This document shows positions 6,661-27,370 of a stretch of 64,000 nt of DNA, piece after piece. The position numbers and the translations under genes are program-made. The stretch spans positions 4,845,001-4,909,000 of the forward strand of contig NC_012491.1 of the NCBI RefSeq assembly GCF_000010165.1, read 5' to 3'. This DNA is from Brevibacillus brevis NBRC 100599 (lineage in GTDB: Bacteria > Bacillota > Bacilli > Brevibacillales > Brevibacillaceae). The notes beneath the pieces are model-generated. The model made no database searches and was not told the origin of the DNA. It saw nothing but the letters and a program-made list of their open reading frames with translations. How positions within the stretch are numbered: the first letter of the stretch is position 1; each line of letters starts with the position of its first letter.

Positions 6661-6753
6661 CCGTGCATCTGCACGGGAGAGGTTCGCGAACTCCCTCTAT
6701 AAAAAACTAAGCTGGATAACAGTACCTTTCTTTGGTATTGTTATTGTTTTTTT
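6661..6753 (+). ncRNA. preQ1-I riboswitch with transcription terminator
   Basis: The aptamer core is at 6678-6710: AGAGG (6678-6682) pairs with CCTCT (6694-6698), and the A-rich tail TATAAAAAACTAA (6698-6710) is the type I preQ1 pseudoknot strand. A small hairpin CCGTGC-ATCT-GCACGG (6661-6676) precedes it. The expression platform is a terminator: ATAACAGTACC (6716-6726) pairs with GGTATTGTTAT (6734-6744), then a T-run to 6753. Binding of 7-aminomethyl-7-deazaguanine should favour termination and shut down the downstream queCDEF genes that make it. Confidence 0.95.
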
Positions 6754-24563: not shown

Positions 24564-25508
24564 CTACCATTTCGCTGCCCAAGCTTCTATCTCCACTTTG
24601 AGCGAAGGGACTGCCAATGACGGGACGTAAGACATGGTCATCGCTGGCGGTGTCCCCCCATGGAACTTCTCCCACACTTGATTAAAATGCTTCCAATCCA
24701 TTTGCTCGGTTGCCCATATATTGATTTTGATGATATGGTCCGCAGTTACGGACTCACTTTCAAAATTGCGCAGTATGTTCTGTAGCGTGTTTTCTACTTG
24801 TTCTTTCATATTTGTCGGCAACTCTCCGTGAAGGTCCATTCCTACCTGCCCAGAAAGTATGAGCAAATCGGCTCCTTTTGGAACGACCGTCAGATGTGTA
24901 TAGGGTCCCATAGGCGGAGCAACTGTACCAGGATTTTTGCGCTGAACCTTGGGCTTCACCTGGTCGGCTTGTTCTTCTTTGACGATCGCCAGTGTTTGGT
25001 GATCTTCCCACCGTCCATTAATTTTCACGTTTTTCTTGGCAATCCCTTCCTTGTGGAAACCAGCTTTTAGCAGCACCTTGATCGAGCCTATATTATGCGG
25101 CATCACTCCTGCTTCCAAACGGTGAAGACCTAATGTATCGAAGGCATAGTCAACGACGAGCTTTACGGCTTCCGTCATGTAGCCTTTTCCATTATGCTCT
25201 TTGTCCAGGAAGTAGCCGATCCAGCAGCTTTGCAGATTAACTCTTACGACCTCTGAAAGGATGACTTCCCCAATGATTTCATCCTGTCCTTTTTTTGCGA
25301 TGACAAAAGCATATCCTCTGTCTTCTTCTTTTAATGCCATCGCGCTCTTGATCCTGTCGATTTGTCCTTCCAGCGTGTAAAACGCCTCTTCTCTCGTCCC
25401 TGTGAAGTTTTGAAAGAAGTCTCTGTTTCTCAATTCAAGCGCCAAGAGGCTCTGTGCATCCGATTCTTGTACCAGTCTTACGTAAATGCTCTCTCCGTTT
25501 CTTTGCAT
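24564..25508 (-). CDS. GNAT acetyltransferase fused to RidA/YjgF domain
   Basis: 314 residues from ATG at 25508, with AAAGGGAG nine bases upstream; the frame stays open upstream through two terminator hairpins, which are not coding. N-terminal half (about 1-175): RimJ-type GNAT with YFLDKEHNGKGYMTEAVKLV (acetyl-CoA site) and IGSIKVLLKAGFHKEG. C-terminal part (about 185-314): RidA-like fold with GPYTHLTVVPKGADLLILSG, QVGMDLHGELP, NTLQNILRNFES, IKINIWATE and PSLAVPSLKVEIEAWAA. RidA clears reactive enamines; the usual catalytic Arg position (R105) appears to be occupied by the V/PSLAVP region without Arg, so activity may differ. The fusion is unusual. Confidence 0.85.
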   Translation of the reverse strand: MQRNGESIYVRLVQESDAQSLLALELRNRDFFQNFTGTREEAFYTLEGQIDRIKSAMALKEEDRGYAFVIAKKGQDEIIGEVILSEVVRVNLQSCWIGYFLDKEHNGKGYMTEAVKLVVDYAFDTLGLHRLEAGVMPHNIGSIKVLLKAGFHKEGIAKKNVKINGRWEDHQTLAIVKEEQADQVKPKVQRKNPGTVAPPMGPYTHLTVVPKGADLLILSGQVGMDLHGELPTNMKEQVENTLQNILRNFESESVTADHIIKINIWATEQMDWKHFNQVWEKFHGGTPPAMTMSYVPSLAVPSLKVEIEAWAAKW

Positions 25509-25526
25509 ACAATCCATCTCCCTTTT

Positions 25527-25548
25527 TCGAAATAAAAAAACACCACAG
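25527..25548 (-). terminator. Tandem terminator 2 (in front of GNAT-RidA)
   Basis: Centre near 25552 on the plus strand: minus-strand CACCGCAGGA, TT, TCCTGTGGTG followed by TTTTTTT. It ends immediately before the SD of the GNAT-RidA gene, so it may attenuate read-through. Confidence 0.7.
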
Positions 25549-25571
25549 GAAATCCTGCGGTGCCCTAAAAA

Positions 25572-25604
25572 GAAAACCACAGGAATGCGACCTGTGGCGT
25601 TTTT
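25572..25604 (-). terminator. Tandem terminator 1 after the 35-aa gene
   Basis: Minus strand: CCACAGG, TCGCATT loop, CCTGTGG followed by TTTTCTTTTT. Lies about 45 bp after the stop of the small gene. Confidence 0.75.
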
Positions 25605-25646
25605 CCACTGTATCCTGATGAATCCCACTACATCAAAGGATGGTCG

Positions 25647-25754
25647 CTATATCCGTTTTTGGACATACTTCTCCCGTGATTGAGCCAGATCAAAGAAAAC
25701 AGCGGTGGAGTATCCAATTCCTTTTGGCAAAGACAGTAATGATCTTTTTTTCAT
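25647..25754 (-). CDS. 35-residue peptide with sequestered ribosome binding site
   Basis: MKKRSLLSLPKGIGYSTAVF then FDLAQSREKYVQKRI. ATG at 25754 preceded by AAAGGAGG eight bases upstream, the best kind of SD. A good promoter (TTGCCA-N17-TATACT) lies about 100 bp upstream, and two terminators follow, so this is a complete small transcription unit. The SD is inside an inverted repeat (25696-25715 with 25757-25780) formed with the gene's own codons 10-16, so translation should be hidden in the folded RNA. The peptide is basic at both ends with a mildly hydrophobic middle. Could be a regulatory leader, a type I toxin-like peptide or a secreted signal; not recognised. Confidence 0.6.
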   Translation of the reverse strand: MKKRSLLSLPKGIGYSTAVFFDLAQSREKYVQKRI

Positions 25755-25780
25755 GTGGATACCCTCCTTTCCGCTGTTTT
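25696..25780. promoter_or_regulatory. Long inverted repeat hiding the SD of the 35-aa gene
   Basis: Plus strand AAAACAGCGGTGGAGTATCC (25696-25715) is complementary to 25757-25780 (GGATAC, CCTCC, CCGCTGTTTT) with a small bulge. In the minus-strand RNA this pairs the AAAGGAGG and its flanks with codons of the same gene, leaving the start codon in the loop. Confidence 0.75.
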
Positions 25781-25854
25781 TACGTGCATACCATTTCGAT
25801 ATAGAGACGGTCGTAGCAACAACCGTTACATTATTATCCAGAAACTACTCCACA

Positions 25855-25883
25855 AGTATAGCGGCAAATGACATTACTGGCAA
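25855..25883 (-). promoter_or_regulatory. Sigma-A type promoter of the 35-aa gene
   Basis: -35 TTGCCA (25878-25883) and -10 TATACT (25855-25860), spacer exactly 17. Overlaps the end of the preceding 69-aa gene on the same strand. Confidence 0.75.
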
Positions 25884-25888
25884 CAGCA

Positions 25889-26098
25889 TCAGTGTCTCTT
25901 TTTGCCGTTTCGCCAAAGCATATACACATTCGCAATGGAGGTCAGTACAAGTAGACCCAACAGGATGTTTGTGACAATCAATGTGTTCGTCAAATGCTGA
26001 ATAGGTGCATGAATCACAGATACAACGCTCATCAGCTTGTTCGGAATATCATTGATCGAGGCAACCAGATTATTGAAATACTGCACATAGTCCCCCAA
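25889..26098 (-). CDS. Small membrane protein (69 aa)
   Basis: TTG start with AGGAGG nine bases upstream. N-terminal amphipathic part (GDYVQYFNNLVASINDIPNK), then a membrane helix (about 38-60, TLIVTNILLGLLVLTSIANV) and a basic tail (RNGKKRH). Size and layout recall holin-like or small regulatory membrane proteins, but no family is recognised. It precedes the 35-aa gene on the same strand. Confidence 0.6.
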   Translation of the reverse strand: MGDYVQYFNNLVASINDIPNKLMSVVSVIHAPIQHLTNTLIVTNILLGLLVLTSIANVYMLWRNGKKRH

Positions 26099-26265
26099 AC
26101 CAGAAAACCTCCTCTTGCATACCTTATCCCGTCCATAGCCTTTGATAAAATTCGCCGCCTTACTCCACTGAAGAAGAATAGATCCATTTTTTTGTGGAAC
26201 AATGAAAAGAAGAGAAGATTTTCATCATTCATAATCTGATTGCAAGAAAGAAGGGAGCTACCTTT

Positions 26266-26799
26266 ATGACGATTCAACGTTTTGTTCGGGAGTCGCGCAC
26301 GTTTAAGGCAAGCCATGTGCTGCCCCCAGATACAAACAATCACAATACGCTGTTCGGCGGCAGGCTGATGGCGCATATCGACGATGTTGCATCGATCTCT
26401 GCCATGAAGCATGCCCGGGGGCCGGTTGTGACCGCCTCCACAGATTCCGTCGACTTTTTGCAGCCAATCCGGGTGGACAATGAGGTTGCACTCGAAGCCT
26501 TCGTCATATGGACGCATAACACGTCGATGGAGGTATTCGTCAAAATTGTTGCGGAGGATTTGCTAACGGGCGTACGATGCGTCTGTGCCACATCCTTTCT
26601 CACGTTTGTAGCGATTGGCGAGGATGGGCGGCCTACCCCTGTACCCAAGATCGTGCCGGAGACGGAAGAGGAGGTATTCCTGCACAATGGTGCTGACGAG
26701 CGTGCTGCGGTACGAAAAATCAGGCGCAAGGATAACAAGCATCTCGCGGATATGCTCGGAACGAGACGTCCGTGGGAGCCATTACTGAACACCCCGTAA
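26266..26799 (+). CDS. Acyl-CoA thioesterase, hot-dog fold (YkhA type)
   Basis: 177 residues. Hydrolyses acyl-CoA to free acid and CoA in the cytosol. Hot-dog signature: HVLPPDTNNHNTLFGGRLMA with the conserved N and D (HIDDVASISAMKHAR), then STDSVDFLQPIRVDN and ATSFLTFVAIGEDG. ATG at 26266 behind AAGAAAGAAGGGAG. Monocistronic, ended by a strong inverted repeat shared with the convergent GNAT gene. Confidence 0.9.
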   Translation: MTIQRFVRESRTFKASHVLPPDTNNHNTLFGGRLMAHIDDVASISAMKHARGPVVTASTDSVDFLQPIRVDNEVALEAFVIWTHNTSMEVFVKIVAEDLLTGVRCVCATSFLTFVAIGEDGRPTPVPKIVPETEEEVFLHNGADERAAVRKIRRKDNKHLADMLGTRRPWEPLLNTP

Positions 26800-26872: not shown

Positions 26873-27370
26873 TTAAACAACGCACAAGCGATAGTGGAGA
26901 AAGTCATCCGGTGTTTCCGACTCCATGTCATAGGGTTCGAATCCATTTTTCAGCAACACTTTTTGCGAGGAGATGTTATCCAGTGTGGTTTTCGCACAGA
27001 TCATTCTGACATTCAAGTGGGGAGCATGCCCCTCCAAAAAGAGCTTCAGTGCCTGTGAAGCCACTCCTTTTCCAGCGGTATCTTCCCCGACTCGATAGCC
27101 GAGATGTCCGATTCCTTCGTCTTTCTCGATGTCTACCAAATTCATTCTGCCCAAGATGTCACCCTGGCTGTTTTTGATGAGGCCAAAAAACGAGATACCT
27201 TGCTCCTGCTCGTCGAGCAAGGCTTGCAGCCCCCGTAAAAAATGGTCATATTGGTAGTAAGAGTCTCCCCGGCTGGGAACCGATTTTTCGAAAAAGGCGC
27301 GATTACGCACTTCAAATTGAAACAAGCTGGCTGCATCTTGTATGCTTAATTTTTCGACAGTAATCATCAT
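26873..27370 (-). CDS. GNAT-family N-acetyltransferase (RimJ/RimL type)
   Basis: 165 residues. Typical layout: SIQDAASLFQFEVRNRAFFE at the start, GHLGYRVGEDTAGKGVASQA for acetyl-CoA binding, ICAKTTLDNISSQKVLLKNG and FEPYDME near the end. ATGATG start after AAAGGA. The start region overlaps the upstream region of a small divergent membrane gene. Substrate unknown; related in sequence style to the GNAT half of the GNAT-RidA fusion. Confidence 0.88.
   Translation of the reverse strand: MMITVEKLSIQDAASLFQFEVRNRAFFEKSVPSRGDSYYQYDHFLRGLQALLDEQEQGISFFGLIKNSQGDILGRMNLVDIEKDEGIGHLGYRVGEDTAGKGVASQALKLFLEGHAPHLNVRMICAKTTLDNISSQKVLLKNGFEPYDMESETPDDFLHYRLCVV

Follow-up and report, generated by a model that had tools for sequence, protein, structure and literature searches.

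The stretch of Brevibacillus brevis NBRC 100599 DNA analysed here (the window, 64,000 nucleotides) carries on its minus strand a gene encoding a RimJ/RimL-like GNAT protein fused to a Rid domain (24564..25508; ATG at 25508, SD at 25522-25518). Upstream on the same strand lies a leader ORF of 35 codons (MKKRSLLSLPKGIGYSTAVFFDLAQSREKYVQKRI, 25754-25647) that ends in the stop codon TAG at 25649-25647. Both had been proposed in the initial annotation, made from the letters alone; the ORF was found at these positions, and the Pfam domains Acetyltransf_3 and Ribonuc_L-PSP were found in the downstream protein. The annotation had also placed a promoter, TTGCCA-N17-TATACT, ahead of the leader. This sequence is present at 25855..25883 on the minus strand with 10/12 consensus matches and is kept only in close Brevibacillus relatives, but the scan gave 1 promoter-like site compared to 2.0 ± 1.5 in shuffled sequences, which is not above chance. 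It is a plausible candidate for the leader promoter. A 69-residue ORF just upstream (25889-26098, minus strand) had no family match in Pfam or NCBIfam and was placed outside the unit because its surroundings are not the same in some close relatives (L022 and L025). Elsewhere in the window, a second GNAT-like ORF was annotated by eye at 26873-27370 (minus strand) and a PreQ1 riboswitch (Rfam RF00522, 46.3 bits) was detected at 6673-6716 (plus strand).

The first 21 codons of the leader ORF (25692..25754, minus strand), ending in GYSTAVFF, form a conserved core that is under selection at the peptide level across 137 distinct leaders, with the consensus MKK[RK]SLxxLSxGxG[YF]STAVFF. In the 62 distinct leaders among the matches listed, K2, K3 and G12 were invariant and L6 and L9 nearly so, at positions (codons 2-13) that lie outside the search pattern, and all four Gly codons are in use at G12 across leaders. 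For codon pairs with a single difference in these 62 leaders, the ratio of synonymous to non-synonymous changes was 6709:2344 in frame, compared to 1159:8211 and 952:8381 in the other two frames; the counts were taken over related sequences, and the pairs are not independent events. Random codon drift of the 35-residue frame had been named beforehand as the result that would count against the unit, and the opposite was found. Selection thus keeps the amino acids of the leader peptide and leaves third codon positions free, and this codon-independent conservation up to F21 is the pattern expected of an arrest peptide. Past F21 the sequences diverge, the frame used for the C-terminal part of the ORF varies between lineages, and RNA rather than peptide is the conserved layer. 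The presence of an SD in the leaders together with in-frame purifying selection predicts that the ORF is translated. The peptide is basic and polar with a GYSTAVFF end, and no protein family match was found in Pfam or NCBIfam; a weak Pfam match to YecU (E 0.09) was taken as chance. In one Brevibacillus leader (L037, G009 1501-1620) an extra base splits the MKKRSL frame from STAVFF while the rest of the unit is intact, a sign of leader decay or of an error in sequencing.

Within the genus, the leader was matched in 18/26 genomes at the DNA level and in 18/26 at the peptide level. Among 399 sampled genomes of the class it was found in 57 with a query of the window's type (E 0.001) and in 61 with a query of the Rid type (E 0.01), at one place in each, that is, as a single copy in ~15% of sampled Bacilli genomes. 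A phylum-wide draw gave matches in 7/398 genomes, all of the same class. When 84,980 species were scanned with a degenerate DNA pattern encoding G[YF]STAVFF, at least 119 loci were returned. The true matches among those listed are from Paenibacillus, Brevibacillus, Lysinibacillus, Bacillus, Metabacillus, Sporosarcina, Virgibacillus, Vagococcus, one Clostridium and others, and the remaining listed matches are chance occurrences in unrelated genes. No motif match was found in viral contigs. The leaders fall into two types. In type A, the window's type (41 leaders), the ORF runs to an element that we call region 0, which is followed by four pairing arms and a GNAT gene; in 20 of these leaders the GNAT is fused to Rid. 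In type B, the Rid-only type (96 leaders), the ORF is exactly 21 codons long in 94 and is followed by a hairpin carrying a conserved motif and then by a Rid gene, and terminators are absent. Five Lysinibacillus type B leaders (L109, L152, L159, L173 and L181) have a post-stop motif of the form GGG..CCC followed by six T, which is terminator-like. At one further locus upstream of a Rid gene (L251, G003), a GGGAGTGTCC-like SD and GACGAGGTG remain and the STAVFF ORF is absent; this looks like a decayed type B leader.

The gene context of the leader is fixed. All 134 testable leaders precede a GNAT, GNAT-Rid or Rid gene (Rid in 94/94 type B and GNAT in 40/40 type A leaders), the other three of the 137 having too little downstream sequence to be counted. 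No STAVF motif was found upstream of ten related GNAT/Rid genes that do not adjoin a detected leader. The closest solved structure to the GNAT domain is annotated as a ribosomal-protein-S5-alanine N-acetyltransferase. The Rid domain of the window's protein has Met (PAMT/PSMT) where active, deaminating Rid proteins have the catalytic Arg, and all ten Rid-only proteins inspected behind type B leaders have PAMT or PSMT at this position; the conserved Arg of the imine-deaminating Rid proteins (RidA, Rid1-3) is therefore absent. From their sequences, the Arg-less Rid-only proteins are possibly a distinct Rid subfamily. Rid4-7 likewise do not have the catalytic Arg (PMC4433059).

The SD of the leader had been predicted to be hidden in a hairpin formed with codons 10-16 of the same ORF. 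We recovered the hairpin, but with a different partner. Its 5' arm (25757..25780, minus strand) holds the SD GGAGGG (25767-25762), and positions 25780-25757 pair with 25715-25696, a 3' arm that corresponds to codons 14-19 (GGA TAC TCC ACC GCT GTT). The hairpin has a folding energy of -27.3 kcal/mol (z -4.1), and 0/200 shuffles were as stable. When arms were swapped between species, each leader's own arms paired better than swapped ones, with 0/2000 permutations as good in either leader type; for codons 2-9, used as a negative control, pairing was worse than swapped. In 25 type A leaders, changes on both sides were seen at 3/9 pairs of the helix. An unbiased scan of all segment pairs in type B put two helices at the top, the post-stop hairpin at z -7.8 and the SD helix at z -7.5. 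Swap tests keep shared ancestry, and part of the signal may reflect inheritance. Comparison of the leaders shows that the SD helix is real and that compensatory changes maintain it. The probable role of the SD hairpin is to restrict loading on the leader to a single early ribosome.

Past codon 21, the first conserved RNA element is the motif CACGGGAGAAGTATGTCC (25661..25678, minus strand), which lies 14-15 nt past codon 21 in most leaders in any reading frame. Its general form, GGG[AT]nnnGTnYGYC, was recognised in 103/137 leaders at 13-16 nt past codon 21, and the frames differ. In Rid-only leaders the motif is located in the loop of a covarying hairpin (z -7.8), and no covariation was seen in its closing stem in the window's type. 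A pairing of the motif with the ridA SD, suspected by eye in one subgroup (L057 and L088-L090), was absent from the unbiased segment scan and was rejected.

Region 0 (AGCGACC, 25642..25648, minus strand) follows, and pairs with the loop of a downstream hairpin formed by arms 1 and 2 (hairpin 1:2). This helix shows compensatory changes: in 26 leaders, 98.7% of cells are standard pairs and changes on both sides occur at 3/6 pairs. The swap test gave 0/5000, and with sliding partners as a control the whole structure fell from 95% to 32-57% paired. Region 0 is positioned 104-108 nt from the ATG in nearly every type A leader. A helper element (CAGTGGAAAA, 25601..25610, minus strand) carries GTGG, whose partner in the antitermination fold is the CCAC of arm 1; this pairing holds in 82.5% of cells and has no double changes. 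Region 0 and the helper close a three-way junction in the ON fold of L001, L062, L123, L045, L132 and L207.

The region beyond had been described as two tandem terminators, the second adjoining the SD of the GNAT-RidA gene. Two hairpins with U tracts were recovered in a terminator scan (3 sites compared to 0.8 ± 0.9 expected), and ~20 nt separate the end of the second from the SD of the GNAT-Rid gene. The first of these is hairpin 1:2 (CCACAGGTCGCATTCCTGTGG, 25577..25597, minus strand), which has a U-rich tail in the window's lineage; the hairpin (CCACAGGUCGCuuCCUGUGG), whose loop is complementary to region 0, is paired in 100% of cells. The second (3:4) is formed by CACCGCAGGATTTCCTGTGGTG and a following U run (25541..25562, minus strand), and was identified by the terminator scan and by tail comparison. 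Between them, arms 2 and 3 can form an alternative helix (CCTGTGGT..ACCGCAGG, 25553..25584, minus strand), which is paired in 98.6% of cells with wobble changes only; variation in helix 2:3 and hairpin 1:2 consists mostly of G-U wobbles. In many relatives, complementary ACAU..AUGU is added in the spacer, which terminators do not need, and the self-complementarity of the spacer exceeded that of shuffles (0/300; swap test 24/5000). Because the 9 nt behind the hairpins hold on average 7.2 T for 3:4 and 4.7 T for 1:2, we take 3:4 as the terminator and 1:2 as mostly not one. Of the two proposed terminators, then, the second stands, whereas in relatives the first is mostly found without a strong U tract and is more plausibly an anti-antiterminator, although the window's own hairpin 1:2, with its U-rich tail, may terminate too. 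The pairings 0:1, 1:2, 2:3 and 3:4 share arms, are mutually exclusive, end in an intrinsic terminator and are paired in 95-100% of cells. On these pairings, the window-type leader is better read as a putative four-arm attenuator with an anti-antiterminator (1:2), an antiterminator (2:3) and a terminator (3:4). Two leaders are natural simplified switches: in L011 (G017), hairpin 1:2 and region 0 are lost together, and in L151 a single hairpin with a U tract is left and still pairs with region 0 (AACGAC/GTCGTT).

The initial annotation had suggested that the peptide is a regulatory leader and that anti-termination could switch on the GNAT-RidA gene, and the conservation of peptide, helices and gene context strongly supports this suggestion. 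We consider it probable that transcription of the GNAT-Rid gene is controlled in cis by the unit, which would work as a leader-peptide attenuator and give read-through when the ribosome stalls or does not initiate. In the proposed mechanism, a first ribosome would bind the leader SD while the SD hairpin is still open and would translate MKKRSLxxLxxGxGYSTAVFF, whereupon the SD hairpin would re-form and limit reloading. A ribosome that reaches the stop codon would cover region 0, allowing hairpin 1:2 to form; terminator arm 4 would then be paired and transcription would stop. With a ribosome stalled near GYSTAVFF, or never loaded, region 0 would take the loop of arm 1, arm 2 would be free for arm 3, the terminator would be blocked and the GNAT-Rid gene would be transcribed. 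The position of the ORF end fits this arrangement. Type A stop codons lie from 4 nt before the start of region 0 to 44 nt after it, never upstream of the reach of region 0, and none of the 41 leaders has a stop before nt 102; 94/96 Rid-only leaders stop exactly after codon 21. A ribosome at the type A stop codon therefore covers region 0 or has passed through it, and a ribosome at codon 21 is short of it.

Step-wise folding with a ribosome at the stop codon gave 1:2 once arm 2 was made (6.6 expected pairs, with zero for 0:1), and with a ribosome stalled at codon 21 it gave 0:1 (7.1) and 2:3 (7.7) once arm 3 was made. At the arm-3 stage, 2:3 already outcompetes 1:2 in both ribosome states, and in the complete leader the equilibrium pairing of arm 4 was 0.92 with a stalled ribosome compared to 0.99 with one at the stop codon. 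Antitermination at equilibrium was rejected, as folding does not separate the states and only the kinetic version stands. Since equilibrium folding hardly distinguishes the two ribosome states, we infer that the switch must be kinetic, as in other attenuators. Our leading guess for the trigger of the presumed arrest is an inhibitor of translation that targets the peptidyl transferase centre. Arrest by chloramphenicol and linezolid is reported to be best with Ala, and next best with Ser/Thr, in the penultimate position (PMC8987054), and by analogy the Ser-Thr-Ala run of the leader suits peptidyl-transferase inhibitors.

The same leader could work with the opposite polarity, a ribosome held at STAVFF being repressive, or mainly through mRNA stability or translation. 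The Rid-only leaders lend this some weight: they share peptide, SD helix and motif with the window's type but have no terminators, so that their type must act at the level of mRNA stability or translation and the ancestral output was probably not termination. The poor separation of the two ribosome states by equilibrium folding also leaves room for it, but the conserved and compensated layout of region 0, 1:2, 2:3 and 3:4 in the window's type fits a stall that turns the gene on, and we judge this reading unlikely. We hold it improbable that the motif GGG[AT]nnnGTnYGYC is a ligand-sensing, riboswitch-like element to which the ORF is accessory. Its constant distance whatever the frame would suit such an element, as would its place in a hairpin loop in the Rid-only type, where the hairpin covaries strongly; peptide conservation with free third positions is unexpected for a passenger ORF, the closing stem does not covary in the window's type, and this short motif has no match among Rfam families.

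That the leader peptide is a trans-acting small protein seems highly improbable, even though its 21 residues are very strongly conserved over many genera, since it occurs once per genome, always directly before one gene family, with a C-terminal part whose frame differs by lineage and without a protein family match. The initial annotation had also raised a type I toxin mRNA with a self-sequestered SD. The small ORF, the SD in a hairpin and the terminators recall such an mRNA, but the fixed context before GNAT/Rid genes, a cis tie to one gene family in every testable leader, and the basic and polar, family-less peptide with its GYSTAVFF end make this suggestion barely credible, and the partner of the SD lies inside the coding sequence rather than in an antisense RNA. 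A consensus scan of the plus strand at 25400-26300, a weak test for an antisense RNA, showed no promoter-like site. Programmed -1 frameshifting on U UUU UUC in the Rid-only type was rejected, as the site is immediately followed by a stop codon; a slippery heptamer is absent from the window's type.

Attenuators of the trp type have four arms with mutually exclusive pairings 1:2, 2:3 and 3:4 that are read by a leader ribosome. The leader described here differs from them in having no run of a single amino acid and in an extra region 0 that must be covered for 1:2 to form. The yjhQ gene encodes a GNAT protein. The toiL uORF of E. coli topAI-yjhQ resembles the present leader as a uORF that senses ribosome-targeting antibiotics, and differs in that it occludes the topAI ribosome-binding site and works through Rho-dependent termination, and also in its peptide and organism (PMC12121999). 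For vmlR of B. subtilis, the leader-ribosome logic of stalling and read-through has been proved (PMC9226507). There, as proposed here and likewise in Bacilli, the position of the ribosome on a short ORF sets an anti-antiterminator, an antiterminator and an intrinsic terminator; in contrast, its ORF codes for the tripeptide Met-Ile-Asn and lies within the anti-antiterminator hairpin, its SD is single-stranded and its gene encodes an ABCF protein (PMC9226507). The present leader instead has a conserved 21-residue peptide, an SD paired to codons 14-19, coupling via region 0 and the hairpin loop, and a GNAT/Rid gene. For erm leader peptides, drug-dependent arrest is reported to refold RNA hairpins so that the downstream gene is switched on (PMC5118997); control there is mostly at erm translation, and peptide and gene are unrelated. 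The uORFC-6-1 motif before hflX is a Bacillales leader ORF found computationally, with an RNA structure that covaries and an Arg-Leu-Arg motif that resembles an arrest sequence, and differs in peptide, structure and gene (PMC8632094).

The leader matched no Rfam covariance model at gathering or relaxed thresholds, and no Pfam or NCBIfam family covers it. A literature search on the leader peptide, RidA leaders and GNAT-Rid fusions found no description of the leader; most subscription journals lay outside this search, and novelty is provisional. The kind of mechanism is already known, and the leader family, the peptide, the SD tied to putative arrest codons and the region-0 device appear to be new.

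Together, these results add to the few ribosome-read attenuators an apparently undescribed, ancient leader peptide with a near-invariant GYSTAVFF end and an RNA switch. We tentatively suggest that GYSTAVFF could be a new nascent-chain sensor across Bacillales that arrests on a specific inhibitor or metabolite, with the Arg-less Rid and GNAT proteins under its control providing the matching detoxification or ribosome protection. One leader common to Rid-only, GNAT-only and fused genes joins an Arg-less Rid subfamily and a RimJ-like GNAT. This offers a handle on Rid/GNAT function, as a compound that stalls the leader should point to the substrate.
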